Origin: Comamonadaceae bacterium
GTDB taxonomy: Bacteria; Pseudomonadota; Gammaproteobacteria; Burkholderiales; Burkholderiaceae_C
DNA: 41,256 bases
Reading direction: 5' to 3'
Assembly: GCA_947508145.1 (NCBI GenBank)
Contig: CANNRV010000002.1
Location: 1 to 41,256 of the forward strand
Both the position numbers and the translations under genes were made by a program. A model generated the notes under the pieces. That model worked only from the letters and a program-made list of their open reading frames with translations, was not told where the DNA came from and did not search any database. Below are positions 152-15,211 of this stretch, one piece after another; the stretch's first letter is position 1; every line of letters begins with the position of its first letter.

Positions 152-2296
152 ATGGCAACCGCAAGTGCAACACTCAACTCCCCCCTTGGTACCAGCAACA
201 ACGCGCTGACCACTGATGCAGACAATGGCGCGCGCAGCAATGCCATGGTCGCCAGTGGCCCATCCGTGCGCAGCGGTGACCTGGCACGTTCAATCACCAG
301 CTCAGCCTTGACCGACCCGATGGGCATGATCCGCGACCTGGTGCGTCAGCCCTCGGTGCGCAAGGTGCTGCCCATCGTCGTCATCATGATGGTGGTGGCT
401 GCATTCGGCTTGGCCTCTATGTCCATGAAAACGCCGCCCATGCGTCCTTTGACCATGATGCTGCCGGAAGCGGACAAGCAAATGGCCATTGAGACCTTGA
501 AGACCGCTAACTTCAAACCCGAGATTGACAAGAACACCGGACAAATTTTGGTGCCTGAAGACAAGTACCAGGAAGCCCGCATGTTGCTGGCTTCCAAAGG
601 CTTGCCGCGCACCGAAGCACAGGGCATGGACACCTTGAAAGACATGCCGGCCATGACCACCAGTCAGTTCATGGAACAAGTCCGCTACAACAATGCCATG
701 GAACAGGAACTGGCGAAAACGATTTCGCAAATCGCCGGTATCCGCAGCGCCCGTGTGCACCTGGCCGCACCCAAGCAAAGCGTGTTTGTGCGCGACCGCG
801 TGCCAACCAAAGCGTCTGTCATCATCACTCGCGCACCCGGCAAAGAAGTCTCGTCTGCCAATGTGCAAGCCATCATTTCACTGGTGGCTTCCAGCGTGCC
901 TTACCTGGCCCCTGAAAACGTCTCCGTGGTGGACAACTTCGGCTCGCTGATGAATGAAATGCTGGGCCCGCAACCGCTGGGCCTGACCGGCGCAGAGTTG
1001 CAGCAAAAACAGCAAATGGAAGATTTGTACCGCACCCGTTTGATTCAATTGCTGTCGCCCATCGTTGGCGCTGAAAACGTGTCGGCCCAGGTCAGCCTGC
1101 AACTCGACTTCACCCAAGATGAAGTCACCACCGAAGATTTTGACCAGCGCGACAAGGGACCGAAAACACGTTCCGAGTTGTATGTGGAAGACCGCAATAC
1201 CTTCAAAGATGCGATTGGTATTCCCGGCTCGTTGACCAATACACCGCCGAATCCGCCGATCAACCCGGCAGCCACCGATGCCACACCCGCCGACCCGAAC
1301 AAGGGCGTGAGTGAAAAAGGCGTGCAAGTGGTGGCCCGCAGCACCAAAAACTATGAGCTCGACCGCTCGGTGCGTCACACCAAGAGCGCCATGGGCAATA
1401 TTTCTAAGCTCGGTGTCGGTGTGCTGATCAATGAGCGCCCGATTCCTGCCGGTATGAAAGTGGAGAAGCCCGCCGATGGTTCACCACCGCCGACCACCAT
1501 TCCTTACACACAAGAAGAACTCGACCGTTTGAACCAATTGGTGCGCGGTGCGGTTGGCTTTAACGACAAACGCGGTGACGTGGTCACGGTGGTGTCCACC
1601 CGTTTTGAGCCGCCTGTCGACCCGAATGCCGTGCCTTGGTACAAGGACGAGAACCTGGCCTCACTGGCCAACAGCGGCGTGATTGCACTGTTGTTCCTGT
1701 TGTTCCTGATGGCTGTGGTGCGACCCATGATCAAGAAATTGCTCAAACCCGAAGTCGACCCTGCTGCATTGGCCGCTGCTGCCTTAGCCGCCGCCGCCAC
1801 CGAAGCCGCCACCGCCGAGAAGATCCGTGCCGAACGCATCGCCGCCGCCGAAGCCGAGGCCGCTGCCCGGGTGATTGCCGAACGCGCCGCCAGAGAAGAG
1901 GCCGAGGAAAAAGCACGCAAAGCCGCCGAAGCACTTGCCGAAGCCGAACGCCAAGCTGCCGAAGCGCTGGCCAGAGAGTCGGAGATGGCCGAAGAAGCCG
2001 CCGCCGCCGAAGCCGCCCGCATGGCCGAAGAAGAAGCCGCCCGTGAAGCCGAACGCCTGGCCGCTCTGGAGCTGCAAGCCGAGAACGGCACCGAGGAAGT
2101 GGAGTTGGAAGAAGGTGAGTCGCTAGATGATCTCAAAGCACGCATGGGCAAACTCAAACCTAAGAAACCGACCATACCTTCCGATTTACTGAACAATGCC
2201 AACTCGTATGACGATAAGGTTGCACTGATTCGCATGATCGTGTCTGACAACTCCGGCCGGGTGGCCAGTGTCATGCGCAACATGATCGAATCTTGA
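152..2296 (+). CDS. fliF: Flagellar MS-ring protein FliF
   Basis: 714 aa; two TM segments, RBM motifs (LVPEDKYQEARMLLASKGLP, ARVHLAAPKQSVF), C-terminal FliG-binding tail (NSYDDKVALIRMIVSDNSGRVASVMRNMI). Confidence 0.97.
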   Translation: MATASATLNSPLGTSNNALTTDADNGARSNAMVASGPSVRSGDLARSITSSALTDPMGMIRDLVRQPSVRKVLPIVVIMMVVAAFGLASMSMKTPPMRPLTMMLPEADKQMAIETLKTANFKPEIDKNTGQILVPEDKYQEARMLLASKGLPRTEAQGMDTLKDMPAMTTSQFMEQVRYNNAMEQELAKTISQIAGIRSARVHLAAPKQSVFVRDRVPTKASVIITRAPGKEVSSANVQAIISLVASSVPYLAPENVSVVDNFGSLMNEMLGPQPLGLTGAELQQKQQMEDLYRTRLIQLLSPIVGAENVSAQVSLQLDFTQDEVTTEDFDQRDKGPKTRSELYVEDRNTFKDAIGIPGSLTNTPPNPPINPAATDATPADPNKGVSEKGVQVVARSTKNYELDRSVRHTKSAMGNISKLGVGVLINERPIPAGMKVEKPADGSPPPTTIPYTQEELDRLNQLVRGAVGFNDKRGDVVTVVSTRFEPPVDPNAVPWYKDENLASLANSGVIALLFLLFLMAVVRPMIKKLLKPEVDPAALAAAALAAAATEAATAEKIRAERIAAAEAEAAARVIAERAAREEAEEKARKAAEALAEAERQAAEALARESEMAEEAAAAEAARMAEEEAAREAERLAALELQAENGTEEVELEEGESLDDLKARMGKLKPKKPTIPSDLLNNANSYDDKVALIRMIVSDNSGRVASVMRNMIES

Positions 2297-2324: not shown

Positions 2325-3359
2325 ATGGCTGACGATACGATTCAATGGACCCCCGAACTGCGCGCAGAGATGGAGGCCATGACCTCCACCCAACGGGCTG
2401 CAGTGTTGATGTTGCTGCTGGGGGAAGAGCAGGCGGCTGAGATTGTCAAATACCTCAGCCCCAAAGAAGTACAGGCACTGGGCGCAGCCATGGTGCAAGC
2501 GTCTTCGCTGTCGCAAGGCGCGGTGAATGTGGTGCTCGACCAGTTTGTCGACATGCTGAAAAAACAAAACAGCGTGGGCTTAGGCGGCACCGACTATGTC
2601 GACCGTGTGATGCGTTTGGCACTGGGTGAAGACAAAGCCAATTCGGTGCTCAACCGCATCATGCCGGGACAAGGCACCAAAGGGCTGGACATTTTGTCGT
2701 GGATGGACCCGCGCTCGATTGCAGAGATGATCCGGACCGAACACCCGCAGGTGATCGCCATTATTTTGTCGATTCTGGAAACCAGTGTGGCCGCCGACGT
2801 GTTGGTGTATTTGCCGCCGGAAGTCCGCCCTGAAGCCATTCAGCGTGTGGCCGCCATGGACACGGTGCAGCCGTCTGCCATGGCCGAGCTGGAACAAATC
2901 ATGAAGCAGCAGTTTGCCAAGAGCTCGTCGTCCAAGTCGTCAAGCTTTGGCGGCATCAAGGCCGCAGCCGCCATCATGAACAAAACCAAAACCGATATGG
3001 AACGCTCCATCATGGATGGTTTGGAAGAGATCGATGCGGATTTGATGCTGAAGATTCAGGATCAGATGTTCACTTTCGACAACCTGGTCACGGTCGACAA
3101 CAAGGGTATTCAGGTGTTGATGCGCAACGTCGAGCCCGACCAGTTGATGGTCGCCTTGAAAGGCGCACCCGACGAAGTGCTGGCGCGTTTCTTGGACAAC
3201 ATGTCCGAACGTGCACGCGGCATGTTCAAAGACGACATGGATGCACGCGGACCGGTGCGTGTCGCCGATGTCGAAGATGCGCAGAAGAAAATCATGCGTC
3301 TGGCGCGCAAGCTGTCAGACACCGGCGAATTGATCTTGGGCGGAGCAGACTTTGTTTAA
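2325..3359 (+). CDS. fliG: Flagellar motor switch protein FliG
   Basis: 344 aa; LLLGEEQAAEIVKYL, EHPQVIAIILS, DLMLKIQDQMFTFDNLV, GPVRVADVEDAQKKI motifs. Confidence 0.97.
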   Translation: MADDTIQWTPELRAEMEAMTSTQRAAVLMLLLGEEQAAEIVKYLSPKEVQALGAAMVQASSLSQGAVNVVLDQFVDMLKKQNSVGLGGTDYVDRVMRLALGEDKANSVLNRIMPGQGTKGLDILSWMDPRSIAEMIRTEHPQVIAIILSILETSVAADVLVYLPPEVRPEAIQRVAAMDTVQPSAMAELEQIMKQQFAKSSSSKSSSFGGIKAAAAIMNKTKTDMERSIMDGLEEIDADLMLKIQDQMFTFDNLVTVDNKGIQVLMRNVEPDQLMVALKGAPDEVLARFLDNMSERARGMFKDDMDARGPVRVADVEDAQKKIMRLARKLSDTGELILGGADFV

Positions 3360-4827
3360 CCCTGACCCGCTCAAACCGGCACCGCGCCATTGGTTGGATG
3401 ACACCTGGCTGAATTCTTCATCGCCTGCGTTGAAGACATTCGGGGAATTCGATTGGGCCAATGTGCCCAAGCTGGATTTCTCCAGTGTGAAATTCCGTCA
3501 ACTGGCAACGCCGGAAAAAGCCAAAGTATTGGATGACGACGAAGGCTTTGTGCTGGAGACCTATGGTCGCAAACCGTCTTTCAAACCCGATGCCACAGGT
3601 TCGCAGCCAGCGCCTGCCAAGCAAGATGATGCAGCGCAGGCAAGCCACGACATGTCGTCGGATGAACAAGCCGCATTGCTGGCAGATGACCAGGAATTAC
3701 AGCGTCAGGAACAGGCTTTGTTGCAGGCTGAACGTTTGCGCTTGCAACAACTGGCCGATGCCGAACGCGAGCAACAACGCCAACTGGAACGCGTGCTCTT
3801 CGGTGCAGACAGCATGTGGCGAGCCACAGATGAAGACGCTTTAGATGCCTGGCCCATGGGCGACGATGCCGAAGTGATTGACCCGGCTGCATTGGCAGCG
3901 GCACGCGACGAGGCTTATGCCCGTGGCCACGCCGACGGCGTGAACGCCGGTTTGCAACACGGCATGGAACAAGGCGTGGCGCAAGGCCAGACCCAAGGAC
4001 ACGAAGCCGGCATGGCGCAAGCCCGCACCGAAGCGCAGGCGCAATTGCAGCAGGCCTTGGAAGAACAGAAAACCGAATTGAGCGCCAGCCTGCAAGAACA
4101 ATTGCAATTGCTGCAACAACTCAACGACAAACTCTCTGCGTTCAGCAGCAACCCGCAGGCCTTGTTTGAACCCGTGAAGCGATTGGCATTGCACATCAGT
4201 GAACAACTGGTGCTGGCCGAGCTGACTTTGTCGGGTCAGGCGATTGAACGGCTGGTGCAACGCTGTCTGGATGAAATTGACATGCACGGCCAGCCCGCCA
4301 TCACGATTGAATTGAACCCGCAGGACAAAGCCAGGTTGGAAGACATAGGCGGCGACACCATCAAACAATTGCAATTGCACTCGGTGCCTGGCTTGCATCC
4401 CGGCAGCGTGCGTTTGCTGGTGAATGACAGCCAGATTGAAGACTTGATCGAACACCGCTTGCAGGCCATGGCCAACCGTTTGTTGAACCAACCCGAGCAA
4501 TGGCGCGAGCAATCGGCGTTTTTCCGCCAGCCGCTGGCGCAGCGCGACGGGCAAGTGCAAGACGTGCCACCGCGTGTGGTGTTCAACGAGACCTCGCTGC
4601 ATGAGCCGGTGCAAGACCTGCCAAGCCGTGCGCAAGTGCTGCAGGAAGAGCCTGTGCAAGCAGAAGCTTTGCATGAAGAACCTGTGCACGCAGAAGCCGT
4701 GCAAGACCAACACGCGCACACAGAAACAGTGCAAGCAGAACCTGTGCAACAAGCCGCTGAGCCGCAAGCTGAATTGCCACATGTTGACTTGCCTGAAGAA
4801 CCACAGCCCGGGGACGACCATGCTTGA
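3352..4827 (+). CDS. fliH: Flagellar assembly protein FliH (TTG start overlapping fliG), with extended repetitive C-terminus
   Basis: Position between fliG and fliI; GHADGVNAGLQHGMEQGVAQGQTQGHEAG glycine-repeat helix typical of FliH; FliH/YscL-like C-terminal domain. Confidence 0.9.
   Translation: MFNPDPLKPAPRHWLDDTWLNSSSPALKTFGEFDWANVPKLDFSSVKFRQLATPEKAKVLDDDEGFVLETYGRKPSFKPDATGSQPAPAKQDDAAQASHDMSSDEQAALLADDQELQRQEQALLQAERLRLQQLADAEREQQRQLERVLFGADSMWRATDEDALDAWPMGDDAEVIDPAALAAARDEAYARGHADGVNAGLQHGMEQGVAQGQTQGHEAGMAQARTEAQAQLQQALEEQKTELSASLQEQLQLLQQLNDKLSAFSSNPQALFEPVKRLALHISEQLVLAELTLSGQAIERLVQRCLDEIDMHGQPAITIELNPQDKARLEDIGGDTIKQLQLHSVPGLHPGSVRLLVNDSQIEDLIEHRLQAMANRLLNQPEQWREQSAFFRQPLAQRDGQVQDVPPRVVFNETSLHEPVQDLPSRAQVLQEEPVQAEALHEEPVHAEAVQDQHAHTETVQAEPVQQAAEPQAELPHVDLPEEPQPGDDHA
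4645..4764 (+). repeat. ~30-bp degenerate tandem repeat inside fliH 3' end (about 4 copies)
   Basis: gaagagcctgtgcaagcagaagctttgcat / gaagaacctgtgcacgcagaagccgtgcaa / gaccaacacgcgcacacagaaacagtgcaa / gcagaacctgtgcaacaagccgct... Confidence 0.75.
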
Positions 4828-5467
4828 TTTCATCAATATCGCCTTGCGCACCTTGATGTGCCTGGCTTTCATCGCTTTTGTGGTGCGGCCCATGTTGATG
4901 TCCATGATCCGGCGCGAGCCCAACACCTTGGAGTTGGAGGAAATGGCCCAACTTGCAGTCAACTCCGCCTTCAAAGAGCAGTTCACCGGTTTCTACGCCA
5001 AACGCATCACACCAGCCTTGGAAGCACCCAAAGCCGACAGCGCTGCTGCCCCAGCCACTGACGAACACATAGCAACACCCGAGCCCGAACCGGTGCCGTT
5101 GACAGAAGAAGAAATGCAGGCCTTGGAGGCCAACAAAGCCTATTTGGATGAACTGGTCAAAGGCCACGAAGCCGAAATGGCACGACGCGCGGATATTGCC
5201 GCCGTTGAAACAGAACGACTCGCACAAATTGCGCTGGCCAAAGAGCAAGCAGGTTTGGCAGGCGACGCGGACGAAGACGAACAGGATTCGTCACTGGAAA
5301 AAATGCGTCAAAGCATGAAGAAAGAAAAGAAAAAACCCACCATTCCCGCCGAACTGCTGGCGGGCAACAGTTACGAAGACAAGCTCATGGTGGTGCGTTT
5401 TGTGGCCGAGCAGGAACAAAACCGGGTTGCCAACGCGATTCGCTCCATGATCAAAATTGGGCCATAA
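4820..5467 (+). CDS. FliF C-terminal-domain-like membrane protein (TM + acidic linker + FliG-binding-like tail)
   Basis: ATG at 4820, 215 aa. TM region ...AFIAFVVRPMLMSMIRREP vs FliF ...LFLMAVVRPMIKKLLKP; tail KKPTIPAELLAGNSYEDKLMVVRFVAEQEQNRVANAIRSMI vs FliF KKPTIPSDLLNNANSYDDKVALIRMIVSDNSGRVASVMRNMI. Confidence 0.85.
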   Translation: MLDFINIALRTLMCLAFIAFVVRPMLMSMIRREPNTLELEEMAQLAVNSAFKEQFTGFYAKRITPALEAPKADSAAAPATDEHIATPEPEPVPLTEEEMQALEANKAYLDELVKGHEAEMARRADIAAVETERLAQIALAKEQAGLAGDADEDEQDSSLEKMRQSMKKEKKKPTIPAELLAGNSYEDKLMVVRFVAEQEQNRVANAIRSMIKIGP

Positions 5468-5469
5468 AC

Positions 5470-6795
5470 ATGTTGGATTTCTCTGCTGATATCGATGCTG
5501 TGATGCCGCAATTGCGTACCCCGCAACCGCAGCGCAGCGGCACCTTGGTGCGCTTGGTCGGCATGACGCTGGAAGCGCGCGGCGTGATGGCCCCGTTAGG
5601 CGCATGCTGCGAAGTGGTGGGCCGACACGGTCACCGCGTCGAAGCCGAGGTGGTCGGTTTCAACGACAAGATTTTGTTTTTGATGCCGTTCACCGAACCC
5701 GCTGGTGTTGGCCCGGGCGATATGGTGCGGGTCATCAGCAATTCATCACTGGTCAGCTTAGGCCCGGAGTTGCTCGGTCGCGTGATCGACGGTCGTTGCC
5801 AGCCCTTGGACGGCAAGCCGCCGCCCGAATGCAAAGAGTTGCTCAGCCTGTTGGGTCGTCCTATCAACCCGATGGAGCGCGGCCCGATCAACAAAATTTT
5901 GGATGTGGGAGTGAAAGCCATTAACGGTGTGTTGACCCTGGGGCGCGGTCAGCGTCTGGGTTTGATCGCCGGTTCAGGCGTGGGCAAAAGTGTGTTGTTA
6001 GGCATGCTCACACGTTTCACCAAAGCCGATATCGTTGTCATTGGTTTGATCGGCGAACGCGGCCGTGAGGTGCAAGCGTTTATCCAAGAGTCTTTGGGCG
6101 AAGAAGGTCTGGCCAAGTCGGTGGTGGTGGCGGCTCCTGCCAACGTCTCACCGGTGCTGCGTTTGAAAGCCACGCACTTAACCCATGTGATTGCAGAATA
6201 TTTCCGTGACCAGGGACTCGACGTGTTGATGCTGTGTGACAGCTTGACCCGTGTGGCCCATGCGCAGCGAGAAATTGGTTTGGCCATTGGCGAGCCGCCA
6301 ACCGCCAAAGGCTACCCGCCTTCGGTGTTTGGTTTGCTGCCGAATTTGATTGAACGCGGCGGTGTCGGCAGACACGGTCATGGGTCCATCACAGCGATTT
6401 ACACCGTGCTGGCTGAAGGCGATGATGCCGCTGACCCGATTGTGGACATCGCCCGCGCGTCGCTGGACGGACAGGTGATGTTGTCGCGCAAACTCGCCGA
6501 CTCGGCGCATTACCCGGCGATTGATTTGACCGGCTCGATTTCACGTTTGATGCAATCGCTGCTCAGCAACGAAGATTTGAAATCGGCGAATAAGCTGCGA
6601 CGCTTGTGGTCTATTTACCAGCAAAACGTCGATTTGGTACAAGTCGGTGCTTACGAGCACGGCTCTAACCCTGAACTTGATGAAGCCATACGCTTGAACG
6701 ATCGCATCGTGGCCTTTTTGCGCCAGGATATGCACATCAGCCAGGACTACGACACCACGCGTTTGCAATTGCGCGAACTGCTTAACCAGACTTGA
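5470..6795 (+). CDS. fliI: Flagellar export ATPase FliI
   Basis: Walker A GSGVGKS, GLIGERGREVQ, LLCDSLTRVAHAQREIGLAIGEPPTAKGYPPSVF. Confidence 0.98.
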   Translation: MLDFSADIDAVMPQLRTPQPQRSGTLVRLVGMTLEARGVMAPLGACCEVVGRHGHRVEAEVVGFNDKILFLMPFTEPAGVGPGDMVRVISNSSLVSLGPELLGRVIDGRCQPLDGKPPPECKELLSLLGRPINPMERGPINKILDVGVKAINGVLTLGRGQRLGLIAGSGVGKSVLLGMLTRFTKADIVVIGLIGERGREVQAFIQESLGEEGLAKSVVVAAPANVSPVLRLKATHLTHVIAEYFRDQGLDVLMLCDSLTRVAHAQREIGLAIGEPPTAKGYPPSVFGLLPNLIERGGVGRHGHGSITAIYTVLAEGDDAADPIVDIARASLDGQVMLSRKLADSAHYPAIDLTGSISRLMQSLLSNEDLKSANKLRRLWSIYQQNVDLVQVGAYEHGSNPELDEAIRLNDRIVAFLRQDMHISQDYDTTRLQLRELLNQT

Positions 6796-6808: not shown

Positions 6809-7249
6809 ATGAAGCCCCGCAGTTGCTGGTCCGTGCTGGCCAAAAAAGCAAAAGACGAAGAAGAGACCGCGCAAACCGCAGCCGCCAAAGCACGCAACAA
6901 AGTGTTGGAGTTGCAGCAAAGCCGACAGCGCATGGACCATTTATTGCAAGACTACAAACTGCGTGCCTTGGAATCGCAGGCCAAGTTGCAGTCCATGTCA
7001 CAAACCACCAACAGCCGACAGTTTTTATTGCAATTGCAAAGTCTGGTTGACCGTGTGCAAGTCGATTTGCAACAGGCGTTGCGCGAGTTGGAACAAGCCA
7101 AAGCGGTGTTGTTGCAAGCCACGCACCAGCGCATGAAAATGGAAACCATGCAGGAAAAAGATTTGCAGGCGGTGCAAACCTGGGAGCGCAAACGTGACCA
7201 GAAAGAAATGGACAGTTTGGGCCTGACCCTCTACAACCTCAAGGCCTGA
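6809..7249 (+). CDS. fliJ: Flagellar export chaperone FliJ
   Basis: Short coiled-coil protein directly after fliI; KDLQAVQTWERKRDQKEMD typical FliJ end. Confidence 0.85.
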   Translation: MKPRSCWSVLAKKAKDEEETAQTAAAKARNKVLELQQSRQRMDHLLQDYKLRALESQAKLQSMSQTTNSRQFLLQLQSLVDRVQVDLQQALRELEQAKAVLLQATHQRMKMETMQEKDLQAVQTWERKRDQKEMDSLGLTLYNLKA

Positions 7250-8057
7250 CCCACCCGGCTTGCAGCCCATGCCAGTAATGCGGCTTGAAAGCCCAGGGCA
7301 TCATGGTGGTGCTGGTGCCGGGCGCAAACACCGTGCGGGTCACATGGTCGTGCCACACGCCTTTGGCATGCATTTTTCCCAATAGCAACTGAGCCGCTTC
7401 TTCGTGTGTGTGCACCTGTTCACCAATGCGCACACGGGCTGCGTCTTCAGGCAAATCATCCAAGCGGGTCCATGTCAACGTGTCATACGCAGGCAATGGC
7501 ATGTCGGCATCGATAGGGCCTGAATACACATCATGCAGACTGCCCCAGCTGCGGCCTTTGAGCAAATGTTTCAACTGTGCGAGTTGGCGCTCTGCCATGT
7601 CTTCGTCGCCCAAACGAAAACTCAGCTGTCCCAGCACATTGTCAAACCACAAGCAAGCCTTGGGGTGTTGATGAAGCAAGGCGGGCAGTCCGGCAATCGC
7701 ATCTTGCCGGTGGTAGCGCACAGTGATGCCTTGTTGTTTTAACTCGCGTGCGTGGCGCAGACCGAAGAGCAGTGGCACCAAGGGGTCGATGTCATACACA
7801 TCAATGCATTCAAAGCGTGCCAGCCACGGCGTGGGCAGCATCCAACCGGCGCTGCAACCGATCAATATCAAATGCTTGTCGTCGGTGTGCACACCGGCGA
7901 GAAAAGCAGCGATCAGTTCACGCGTGGGCAGCCAGCGTTGCAATGAACGGGCTGCGTGTACATGCCAGTTCAGACCGCCTGTGCCACCGGCGTTGGCCAG
8001 GTCTCTGAGCCAGGTGGCCAGTGCGTGGTGCGCTGACTGCTTATTTTTCACAGACAT
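7239..8057 (-). CDS. Hypothetical protein, possible Rossmann/SAM-dependent methyltransferase-like fold
   Basis: 272 aa ORF; LILIGCSAGWMLPTPWLARFECIDVYDIDPLVPLLF resembles a nucleotide/SAM-binding beta-loop; overlaps the upstream minus ORF (coupling). Confidence 0.6.
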   Translation of the reverse strand: MSVKNKQSAHHALATWLRDLANAGGTGGLNWHVHAARSLQRWLPTRELIAAFLAGVHTDDKHLILIGCSAGWMLPTPWLARFECIDVYDIDPLVPLLFGLRHARELKQQGITVRYHRQDAIAGLPALLHQHPKACLWFDNVLGQLSFRLGDEDMAERQLAQLKHLLKGRSWGSLHDVYSGPIDADMPLPAYDTLTWTRLDDLPEDAARVRIGEQVHTHEEAAQLLLGKMHAKGVWHDHVTRTVFAPGTSTTMMPWAFKPHYWHGLQAGWVRP

Positions 8058-8460
8058 GCCGCATGATGGTGAACACCGGTGAAGAAGGAGGTACCGGTTG
8101 CCATTCAGCGATCACGCCTTCGCTGGTCAGCGTCTCGCCGCTTAAGCGTGCGCCGCTGTAAATCGCCAATGAACGGCTGCGTGCCTGCTTTTGTGTGCAA
8201 TCAATTTCCAGCAACATGCGGCTGGACAAATAGGTTTTGCCCTGGCTGTTTTTTTGCGGCTGTCGGTAGTCCAGCATGGACCAGACTCGGCGCACATGGC
8301 CATCGTGTTCGAGGGAAGATCGGTCAATACCGAACACCACGCTGTCGGTCATGCCAATGCTGACCCAATCGGCAGCAAAACCCGGCTGAACACAGAGGCA
8401 CAAGCCATATAAAACCAGGCTTTTAAAAGTTTTGCGTATTTTTTTCAATTTGCCTCTCAC
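8041..8460 (-). CDS. Small secreted protein, surface-adhesin-E-like family (probable GTG start)
   Basis: Signal peptide KKIRKTFKSLVLYGLCLCVQPGFAA then ADWVSIGMTDSVVFGIDRSSLEHDGHVRRVWSMLDY; similar layout to ORF 30470-30991. Confidence 0.65.
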   Translation of the reverse strand: MRGKLKKIRKTFKSLVLYGLCLCVQPGFAADWVSIGMTDSVVFGIDRSSLEHDGHVRRVWSMLDYRQPQKNSQGKTYLSSRMLLEIDCTQKQARSRSLAIYSGARLSGETLTSEGVIAEWQPVPPSSPVFTIMRHVCEK

Positions 8461-8470
8461 AGGATAGATA

Positions 8471-8776
8471 ATGCAGACCATGCCAAACCATGACTGGGCT
8501 CAGTACTCTCTCAGTATGACATTCGTCTTGTTGCTGTTGGCGGCGGCTTTGTGGTGGCTGTCGCGTCGCAACAAGGGCTTTCTCCTCCCTGCTGCACAAC
8601 GGCGTATCCAAATTCTAGAGGCCTATCCCATGGGATTGCGCCACAAGTTATTGTTGGTGCAAGTAGATCAGCAGCGACTGCTGTTAGCCATCAACAGCAA
8701 CGATATTCAAACCCTGCATGCCTGGCCTGCAGAACCCCAAGCAAGTACAACAACAGGTGCCAGTGATGCGAATTAA
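8471..8776 (+). CDS. fliO: Flagellar biosynthesis protein FliO
   Basis: N-terminal TM, then RRIQILEAYPMGLRHKLLLVQVDQQRLLLAI; directly upstream of fliP. Confidence 0.85.
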   Translation: MQTMPNHDWAQYSLSMTFVLLLLAAALWWLSRRNKGFLLPAAQRRIQILEAYPMGLRHKLLLVQVDQQRLLLAINSNDIQTLHAWPAEPQASTTTGASDAN

Positions 8777-11742: not shown

Positions 11743-13407
11743 ATGAGTGACTTCTACCAAAGCCCTGCCGATCAATTGCGCTTTGAAATATTGCTCAAGT
11801 CCTTGCGCGAAGGGCGTTTGAATCTGGCCATTCTGGGTGACGATGAAATCGCACTGGCGCATTACGGGCGACGCATTTTTCAGCATTTGCGCGAGCAAGG
11901 CGAACAGCATGTGGAACTGTGGACCTCGGCTGACTCAGACCGCTTGGTGGACCGCTTTAACGAAATACTCTCCACCTTGACGCTGGACCAGGCGCTGGAC
12001 AAATCCAATAAATCCAGTCCCAGACGTTTCATGATTTTTCCGGACACGCAAGGCATTCAAGACTTTGAACTGCAATTGCTGGCGCGACTGGTCAACGGTT
12101 TTCCGGCCAGCAATATCAATGTGATTTTGCTGGTCAACAGCCGCAGCTCTTACGACAAAAAACTCTCTGCCTTTGGCAAAAACCTGTTGCAGTGGGTGCT
12201 GGAGTCCAAAGACCCGGCACCGGGTCAGCCCCAGCGTTTGGAAACCTTGGGCGACTGGCCCGGCGCGAAACAAGTGCCATCGGTGAAAAAAACCGAAGCC
12301 AAAGCATCGCCGCCTGTGGCTTCGCCTCCGCCATTGCCTGCGGCACCGCCGCCGCCTTTAGATCTGGGCGAGATGCGCCCCGGCATTGACACTGTCCCCG
12401 GCCCGCGGGAACCCGTCCTGGGAGACCCATTGCCGGACGAACCCGTGATGCCCAGCGGCGAAGAGTTAGCCAAATCCTGGGAGGCCGACCGTCAGCGTTC
12501 AGGCCGTGGCGGCAAGGTGGCGGCATTTTTGCTGCTGGCGCTGCTATTGAGTCTGGGCATCTCAGGTTTCGTCTACCAAGATCGGGTGCTGGAAGAATGG
12601 GAAAACCTGCAAACCTATTTAGGTGGCGGTAAAACGCAGGCCGTGGCACCCGTCAAACCACCTGCGCCCGCTGTGCCTTCCGTGTCCATGTCGTCGAGCA
12701 ATTCACCGCCGGTCAAACCCGCAGAAGCGATCAGCCCCGGCAAGGAAGAATTGGTGATGCCAGCCGAACCGCCTGCCGCCGAGGCCGCGACCGAGCCAGC
12801 CAAACCCGCTGCCGAAGCTGTCAAAACCGAGGCCGCTAAAACAGAAACGAACAAACCAGCGGCCAAAGCGGCTGACCCGGCAAAACCGGTTGTTGAGCAG
12901 TCGAAGACTGCGGTGAAGCCTGAGCCCACCAAGCCCGCCGTTTCAGAGCCCGCTAAACCAGAACCGACCAAGGCCGCTGCTGCCAAGCCGGAACCGCCCA
13001 AAGCAGAAGCCAGCAAAGCGGTGGCCAAACCCGAACCCGCCAAGCCTGAGCCACCTAAGCCCGAACCGCCCAAGCCTGTGGCCAAAGCCTCAGACAAGCC
13101 GCTGGACAAGGCCACACAGGCAGACAGCCCCGCTTGGGTGGAGAACCTGGATTCGAATGCCTGGGTGATGCAGCACGGCGCGTTTGACAGTTTGTCCGAG
13201 GCGCGTGCGTTTCAGGCCACCTCCCTGGGCTTCAAGTCGGGGCAAGTGCTGTTCACGCAGCGCAAGGGCAGCAAGCCTTATTACATCCTGGTGACCGGGC
13301 CTTATGCGGAAAGAACGCAGGCCGAGGCCCTGATGAAACAAAACCCGCCTTTGTCCAAGGCCTGGGTGCGAACCGCCAAATCATTGAAAGCGCAATTTCA
13401 GGAATAA
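11743..13407 (+). CDS. DamX-like protein: N-terminal AAA-like domain, TM, Pro/Lys/Ala-rich linker, C-terminal SPOR domain
   Basis: C-term WVMQHGAFDSLSEARAFQATSLGFKSGQVLFTQRKGSKPYYILVTGPYAERTQAEALM fits SPOR; TM VAAFLLLALLLSLGISGFVY; PEPAKPEPPKPEPPKP linker. Confidence 0.75.
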   Translation: MSDFYQSPADQLRFEILLKSLREGRLNLAILGDDEIALAHYGRRIFQHLREQGEQHVELWTSADSDRLVDRFNEILSTLTLDQALDKSNKSSPRRFMIFPDTQGIQDFELQLLARLVNGFPASNINVILLVNSRSSYDKKLSAFGKNLLQWVLESKDPAPGQPQRLETLGDWPGAKQVPSVKKTEAKASPPVASPPPLPAAPPPPLDLGEMRPGIDTVPGPREPVLGDPLPDEPVMPSGEELAKSWEADRQRSGRGGKVAAFLLLALLLSLGISGFVYQDRVLEEWENLQTYLGGGKTQAVAPVKPPAPAVPSVSMSSSNSPPVKPAEAISPGKEELVMPAEPPAAEAATEPAKPAAEAVKTEAAKTETNKPAAKAADPAKPVVEQSKTAVKPEPTKPAVSEPAKPEPTKAAAAKPEPPKAEASKAVAKPEPAKPEPPKPEPPKPVAKASDKPLDKATQADSPAWVENLDSNAWVMQHGAFDSLSEARAFQATSLGFKSGQVLFTQRKGSKPYYILVTGPYAERTQAEALMKQNPPLSKAWVRTAKSLKAQFQE

Positions 13408-13463
13408 ACCAGAGTGGATCAAGTTGTTGGTTTCGCGGTCGAATCACACACACGGAGTACTTT

Positions 13464-14000
13464 ATGAGTGATAAAACAAGTTTTACCGATGAACCCTTGC
13501 CTGACGCAGAACTGGTGGAAGCGGTGACTGCATCCTCCGGCGACCAAGCTTCATCAGAGGCCGTCTCCGCCAGGCCTGACACCATGCCCGGGGCTGTCGC
13601 AGACCATTCCCATGGTCACGACCATTTGCCAGCAGCGCGCTTGGAAGTTGTTGCAAAGGGCTATGGACACAATGACCCGGCCAGCATGGCGGGCAATATT
13701 CAACTTGATTTGCATGATCCCGAATTGGCTGCCGCCGAGAAACCTGAATTAAACCAGCCGATATGGGGGCCATCCGCTACGCCTGCGACACATTCAACAG
13801 ATACAGAGACTGAGGAAGTCGCAGCTGTATTGGCAAAGCCTGAATTACCACCGGTGCTGGCGCATCTGACTCAAGTTGGCTTGACATCCTCCGATCAATG
13901 GGAAGAGCAAATACAACCGCGTCTGACGCAATTGCATGAAGACATCGCTCAGGTGCATACGCAGCTGGACATGTTGGAACGCCAGAAACCGAAAAAATAG
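13464..14000 (+). CDS. Hypothetical protein with HSHGHDH motif
   Basis: 178 aa ORF, downstream of and co-directional with the SPOR gene. Confidence 0.6.
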   Translation: MSDKTSFTDEPLPDAELVEAVTASSGDQASSEAVSARPDTMPGAVADHSHGHDHLPAARLEVVAKGYGHNDPASMAGNIQLDLHDPELAAAEKPELNQPIWGPSATPATHSTDTETEEVAAVLAKPELPPVLAHLTQVGLTSSDQWEEQIQPRLTQLHEDIAQVHTQLDMLERQKPKK

Positions 14001-14020
14001 ATTTCCTGAGGACAAGCAAC

Positions 14021-15211
14021 ATGGCGCAAGATTCCAAAAAAGCAGAAGCTGCCGATGCGGGCGACTTTCTGCCTGACATGCCTGTTGAGCCAATAGAAGC
14101 GGATGACAATGAAACGCTGGCCATCGGCCTGGAGTCGCTGGAAGAGCAGGCGCTTGACGGCACCGAGGTCGCGCGTCAAATCGAAGAGCTGACCGGTGTG
14201 GTGCTCAGCTCGGCTGAGGTGTCCACCCGCTCTGCTGAGGTGGCTGCCAACATCAGCCATGAGATGCGTGCGGTCATGAAAACCGTCAGCGAGATGTCGT
14301 CTAAAAACATCTTGCATTCGCGCGTTATTTTGATCGGCCTGTTGAGCTTTCTGGTGATCGCCGTCGGCTCGTTTTTCGCCATTTCCACCCGCTTGCAGCA
14401 AAACATCCGTCAGCTCGACAGCTTGTCACTGGCAGTGGGTAAACGTGTAGTCGAACTTGATGCCACCTTGGCTACTTTTGGAGACGCCACCCGGGGCTTG
14501 GGCGACACCACCGAAAAACTCGACAGCATGGAAGAGCGTCAAATCAAACTGGATGAAAAATTCCAGGACAAGATGGACGCGCTGGACAAAGTGTTTGTGA
14601 AGATGCCTGACCAAATCGCCGGGCAGGTCAATGGTTTGACCGACAAAAACCTGGATGCCAAGTTCAAAGACTTGCAGAAAAACATACAAGCGCTGGAAGT
14701 CAAGGTACAAGCCTTGTCCAACAAGCCTGCACCGGTTGCGCCGCCCGCGCCTGTGGTGAACAACCAAAAAGAAATCATTGCGGAAATTCAGAAACTGAAA
14801 AAAGACCTGGAAGCCGCCAACGCCGCTGCCACCGCCGCCGCCATCAAAGCCGCCGCCAAAGAGCGCGAACGCGAAAAGCCCCTAGACAGACCGCTGATCC
14901 TGCCTGCACCCGCAGCTGCGCCCAAACCCGCCCCCGCCAAACCCGCCACTAACAAAGCGGCTGAAGCCAAAGTGGCGGCTGAATTGAAAGCCGCCGCCGA
15001 GGCCAAAGCCGCAGCAGAAGCACGCGCCGCCGCTGCCGAAGCCAGAGCTGCGAATGAAGCCAAAGCCGCTGCCGACGCCCGGGCCCGTGCCGCCGCCGAA
15101 GCCCGCGCTGCTGCCGATGCCCGCGCCGCAGCGCAACCACCGGCATTGCCGCCGCGTGCCGCACCTAAGGAAGACAGGGTGGTGTTTCCGCGCCCGGCCG
15201 GGGACAACTGA
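14021..15211 (+). CDS. Hypothetical single-TM coiled-coil protein with long Ala/Glu/Lys-rich C-terminus
   Basis: 396 aa; TM VILIGLLSFLVIAVGSFFAI; coiled-coil ectodomain; AEAKVAAELKAAAEAKAAAEARAAAAEARA low complexity. Confidence 0.65.
   Translation: MAQDSKKAEAADAGDFLPDMPVEPIEADDNETLAIGLESLEEQALDGTEVARQIEELTGVVLSSAEVSTRSAEVAANISHEMRAVMKTVSEMSSKNILHSRVILIGLLSFLVIAVGSFFAISTRLQQNIRQLDSLSLAVGKRVVELDATLATFGDATRGLGDTTEKLDSMEERQIKLDEKFQDKMDALDKVFVKMPDQIAGQVNGLTDKNLDAKFKDLQKNIQALEVKVQALSNKPAPVAPPAPVVNNQKEIIAEIQKLKKDLEAANAAATAAAIKAAAKEREREKPLDRPLILPAPAAAPKPAPAKPATNKAAEAKVAAELKAAAEAKAAAEARAAAAEARAANEAKAAADARARAAAEARAAADARAAAQPPALPPRAAPKEDRVVFPRPAGDN

Follow-up and report, generated by a model that had tools for sequence, protein, structure and literature searches.

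The flagellar operon at the start of the window, by which we mean the whole analysed stretch of 41,256 nucleotides, runs in the order fliF, fliG, fliH, X, fliI and fliJ, followed by fliO, fliP, fliR and flhB. It raises the question of what the gene designated X, predicted to encode a 215-aa protein ending in a FliF-type tail, may contribute to a flagellar motor whose FliF is complete. The host genome belongs to Limnohabitans (Burkholderiales), its assembly comprising 2.0 Mb at 73% completeness. The features concerned are:

152..2296, + strand: fliF, 714 aa (PF01514, PF08345)
2102-2293, + strand: intact tail of FliF itself, residues about 651-714 (dN/dS of the tail 0.02-0.09)
2325..3359, + strand: fliG, 344 aa, presumed partner of X (FliG_N, FliG_M, FliG_C)
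3352..4827, + strand: fliH, 491 aa, with a long C-terminal extension (PF02108); its last 8 bases overlap the start of X
4820..5467, + strand: gene X, stand-alone FliF-tail protein of 215 aa, ATG to TAA
4823..4912, + strand: residues 2-31 of X, membrane anchor helix resembling FliF TM2 (..VVRPM..; AlphaFold helix, shuffles, dN/dS)
4976..5275, + strand: residues 53-152 of X, variable acidic/Ala-rich linker, part disordered, part long helix (96-147)
5276..5464, + strand: residues 153-215 of X, putative FliG-binding tail of the FliF type (homology, shuffles, dN/dS)
5470..6795, + strand: fliI (PF00006, PF18269)
6809-7249: fliJ

The stop codon of X lies 2 bases 5' of the fliI ATG. Its product begins with a single membrane helix (residues 2-31), continues with a linker that evolves fast and ends in a tail of about 60 residues; the pair of membrane segments that flanks a large periplasmic part in proteins of the FliF type is absent. 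AlphaFold2 predicted the membrane helix with confidence (high pLDDT for residues 1-30) and placed helices at residues 177-181 and 185-211 of the tail, and the pTM of 0.25 indicated no overall fold. Scans of X against Pfam and NCBIfam gave chance-level matches only and thus no model for X. The ring-building domains PF01514 and PF08345 did not match X and both matched the adjoining FliF, and no SRP-type GTPase domain was detected in X in these scans.

A BLAST search of X against its own genome found two places only, X itself and the C-terminal part of FliF of the same operon, with 37% identity over X residues 6-212 (E 2.9e-14) and, for the tail alone, 45% identity over 56 aa (E 2e-11). The comparison was controlled by 1000 shuffles of X. 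The tail scored 120 (shuffled 33.7 +/- 4.8) and the membrane segment scored 49 against FliF TM2 (shuffled 22.4 +/- 4.4), both values being reached by 0/1000 shuffles; the score of the X linker against the FliF linker was reached by 264/1000, and the likeness of the two linkers is compositional only. A tail profile (A3) also matched the very end of the C-terminus in canonical FliF proteins, 530-594 aa long, from across the Gammaproteobacteria, with best E values of about 1e-5 to 1e-6 per genome and many weaker ones, the pattern common to the tails being Y-D-D-K-...-R-V-A-x-V-...-(M/W)-(I/V). Since the profile reaches these C-termini, the X tail is homologous to the known FliG-binding tail, and a derivation of X from the FliF C-terminus is supported at the sequence level. 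In a search of PDB sequences the tail profiles gave chance matches and did not recover the solved FliF tails, which are too divergent. An earlier note on this DNA had proposed both this origin and the layout of TM2, linker and FliG-binding tail without RBM domains between fliH and fliI; the origin was borne out by the identities and shuffles given above, and BLAST, shuffles and Pfam show the layout to be correct and well above chance.

Compared with FliF (PF01514, PF08345, TIGR00206), X has a similar anchor, a homologous tail and a shared operon, but it lacks TM1 and the periplasmic ring-building domains, comprises 215 aa instead of 714 and carries lineage-specific tail residues (DKLMVVR vs DKVALIR in the FliF tail), which could serve another partner. 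Being devoid of RBM domains, X is unlikely to build an MS ring.

Conservation was analysed in 69 Limnohabitans genomes, namely the window's own assembly and 68 others at >=80% completeness. X was present in 62/62 genomes with FliG_N and in 0/7 without fliG. Because both genes share one operon, their joint absence from these seven genomes is to be expected and is weak evidence alone; the telling count is that no genome of the genus keeps fliG without X. In all loci with both neighbours visible (60/60) X lies between fliH and fliI and overlaps or abuts both. In the loci compared, the ATG of X usually precedes the final base of the fliH stop by 7 or 13 bases, and the X stop falls between -4 and +19 bases relative to fliI. 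Pairwise dN/dS values against the window copy, which are approximate as dS is near saturation, amounted to 0.03-0.14 for residues 1-52 and 0.04-0.14 for the tail, a constraint comparable to that of the FliF tail (0.02-0.09), and the linker was far more variable (dN up to 0.8). Among 24 homologues 11 columns are invariant, 8 of them in the tail. Within the flagellar operon of Limnohabitans X is thus constant, and purifying selection acts strongly on its anchor and tail. As the FliF tail is likewise intact and conserved, X is an addition to FliF and no substitute for it.

Among public genomes, the relatives with names are the Limnohabitans isolates B9-3, Jir61 and JirII-31, all three of which possess X, next to MAGs of Comamonadaceae and Burkholderiales, many of them from fresh water. 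L. australis has been described as non-motile (PMC3031073). One Limnohabitans MAG (G029) contains two different X genes on contigs C48 and C1, representing either a second copy or contamination, and a public MAG record titled Bordetella parapertussis (L045) bears a Limnohabitans-type operon with X, its name probably being wrong.

Outside the genus, a sensitive profile search of 301 genomes detected no X orthologues in other genera of the family, the matches there being FliF itself. Comamonadaceae matches in g61, g103, g108 and g136 were rejected as X for the same reason, with the exception of two fragments at contig edges in g61. In other genera, two operons whose FliF tail is similar (L151, L152) contain fliH and fliI without X. 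Taken together, these absences suggest that X was probably gained in the Limnohabitans stem. The two points on which the earlier note had wished to see X compared with relatives are thereby answered in different ways: X is neither absent nor degenerate in its close relatives, being present in 62/62 fliG-bearing Limnohabitans genomes and under purifying selection, and the order fliH-X-fliI is conserved within Limnohabitans, but X was not found in other genera of the family among the 301 genomes.

Tail-only profile searches revealed further proteins ending in a FliF-type tail in several other Burkholderiales lineages, which the earlier note had missed. Soluble proteins of 80-81 aa without a TM segment are encoded between full-length fliF and fliG (L096, L099-L103) in MAGs labelled Oxalobacteraceae, Burkholderiaceae or Burkholderiales. 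In family f47, one-TM proteins of about 130-180 aa occupy the same position (G591, G793, G814). Family f18 has multi-TM tail proteins of 255-430 aa away from the fliF operon. Almost all f18 genomes in which FliF was matched contain such a protein in addition to FliF; the second match in G685, a weak one, has a decayed look. A 283-aa tail protein is encoded a few genes from flhB in G659 (f19), where FliF itself was not seen. Wherever the assembly permits a check, the stand-alone tails stand beside a complete FliF, as does X, which likewise has a FliF-type tail at the C-terminus of a non-FliF protein in a genome whose FliF retains its own tail, the features by which we propose stand-alone FliF-tail proteins as a group. 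In the other lineages the tail is the sole part that these proteins share; anchors and gene positions differ, and the tail-only 80-aa relatives suggest that the tail is the essential part.

In a tree of the 60-residue tails all 64 Limnohabitans X tails formed one group (support 0.81), which was joined by the 80-aa proteins (support 0.975). The f18 proteins formed two separate groups (0.999 and 0.955) among FliF tails, and the f18 and f47 forms were nearer to FliF. Given the few sites available, the tree suggests several origins and does not prove them; different origins of the stand-alone tails are likely. A 244-aa frame in G880, which resembled a stand-alone tail, was rejected because it belongs to FliF. 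One f47 genome has, directly after FliF, an incomplete second tail with an in-frame TAA (L189, G835:C81:1832-1930), possibly a decayed stand-alone tail.

The FliF tail and FliG-N co-fold 1:1 and thereby couple the copy numbers of MS ring and C ring (PMC7355467; PMC6079021). Within the FliF tail most of the coevolution signal falls in the last 20 residues, and the FliF-FliG pairs that coevolved agree with contacts in the crystal (PMC6079021). Copy numbers of 34 FliF and 34 FliG have been reported (PMC11528121), and MSC rings of Salmonella were modelled as FliF33:FliG34 (PMC11087270), which implies that the ratio need not be 1:1 and that one FliG can be without a FliF tail. For a docking model, an 80-aa-type tail was extended past its stop codon into the FliG-N that follows in frame in L096, giving one chain, and an alignment of 21 similar natural tail-FliG chains was supplied. 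The AlphaFold2 prediction, which concerns this related tail and not X, was of low confidence (pLDDT 53.5, pTM 0.45). The significant Foldseek matches of the chain model were FliG structures, including FliG-N of solved FliF-FliG complexes, and as such say nothing on the docking of the tail.

By analogy with FliF, the X tail is quite likely to bind FliG-N. As fliG is as a rule single in the genomes of the genus, and the flagellated genomes that were checked contain FliM and FliN, the partner of X would be the ordinary FliG. An odd C ring, for which the missing fliM and fliN near fliO might have spoken, was rejected because both genes are located at another locus.

Our preferred reading, in which we place about as much trust as doubt, is that X acts as a second, non-ring-forming and membrane-anchored FliG holder that is made together with the export ATPase proteins. 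Following FliF-FliG biochemistry, its tail would co-fold with the FliG N-terminal domain in the manner of the FliF tail and so tether FliG to the inner membrane, taking those FliG subunits that lack a FliF tail. X might stage FliG at the membrane beside the growing MS ring, or it might stay as an extra anchor where FliG of the C ring outnumbers FliF of the MS ring; the flexible, fast-changing linker would fit a tether. Provided that FliG-N is bound, such a role in assembly or stoichiometry seems somewhat favoured. A wider extension, which we regard as conceivable though doubtful, would have the Limnohabitans C ring built on FliF plus X, with a FliG:FliF ratio other than 1:1 and extra FliG on non-ring anchors, and the transfer of the tail to other membrane proteins as a repeated route of motor remodelling in Burkholderiales.

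Several other roles have to be weighed against that of a FliG holder. X could compete with FliF for FliG-N, either slowing or gating the attachment of the C ring or acting as a clutch on finished motors. The likely target would indeed be the site that FliF uses, and fliF, fliG and X are expressed together from a single operon. However, its constant presence in the operon and the lack of a separate control region suggest a constitutive part and not a switch, and the overlap with fliH ties its level to that of the structural genes, so that a regulator of this kind seems unlikely. The position of the gene, with ends overlapping or abutting fliH and fliI throughout the 60/60 loci, and the unusual length of FliH in these species (about 400-720 aa) might instead point to X connecting FliG or the C ring with the FliH-FliI export ATPase or with the export gate, the tail holding FliG and the linker FliH or FliI. 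Since no part of X is less conserved than the linker, which makes a specific protein contact in it less probable, and comparable tail proteins elsewhere sit between fliF and fliG or at other places, we consider such a link distinctly unlikely.

It would be more improbable that X recruits FliG to a chosen membrane site such as the pole ahead of FliF, with an effect comparable to that of FlhF. Pre-positioned FliG can seed assembly, as shown in Shewanella, where FlhF-bound FliG captures FliF at the pole (PMC11236974), and X is proposed, on sequence grounds, to be a non-ring protein holding FliG as FlhF does. In contrast to X, which has no FlhF match in the family scans, FlhF is a GTPase that binds FliG-MC and not FliG-N and leaves the FliF-binding site of FliG free, the very site that the X tail would occupy (PMC11236974). 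Furthermore, FlhF-like proteins of 462-531 aa (below the curated cut-off) are present in Limnohabitans. The view that X is a recent and functionless FliF fragment, which would agree with its descent from FliF and its freely varying linker, is already contradicted by its presence in every fliG-bearing genome (62/62), its conserved position and dN/dS values far below 1 at high dS in both modules, and retains hardly any credibility.

Whichever role applies, X represents an unannotated addition to the flagellar parts list. The open-access literature, to which our search was confined, yielded no description of a protein like X, in agreement with the earlier note, which knew of no flagellar component with this layout. 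It is still debated how the copy numbers of MS ring and C ring are brought to match, or how a mismatch is tolerated, and the contact of the FliF tail with FliG-N is the joint between both rings. A dedicated second tail carrier, fixed throughout a genus that is abundant in fresh water and with counterparts of other build in further lineages, offers a natural system for the question of a one-to-one ratio of FliG to FliF. If the proposed role of X as a FliG holder is true, the assembly of the Limnohabitans motor may rest on a pair of proteins that hold FliG and not on a single one.

Some further observations concern the surroundings of the tail genes. X (window position 4820) and FliI (5470) share an MLDF start (ATGCTTGATTTC, ATGTTGGATTTC), which may be a coincidence or a trace of the insertion of X. 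The unusually long FliH of Limnohabitans (loci L048-L062) has a repetitive acidic C-terminal extension in the window copy (3352-4827). An Adhesin_E-type (PF16747) secreted protein is encoded in the flagellar region of the window (8041-8481, - strand). In f18 a Pfam-confirmed protein of this type directly adjoins the stand-alone tail genes (L138:6273-6716; L140:8313-8789), and in f19 a neighbour of the tail gene (L149:7190-7666) resembles it by eye only. The region 3' of flhB (window 11743-15208) encodes a 554-aa SPOR-domain membrane protein, a 178-aa protein and a 396-aa TM coiled-coil protein, possibly further motor accessories; a comparable gene trio adjoins flhB in G659 (L149:8658-11454), which belongs to another family with a stand-alone FliF tail.
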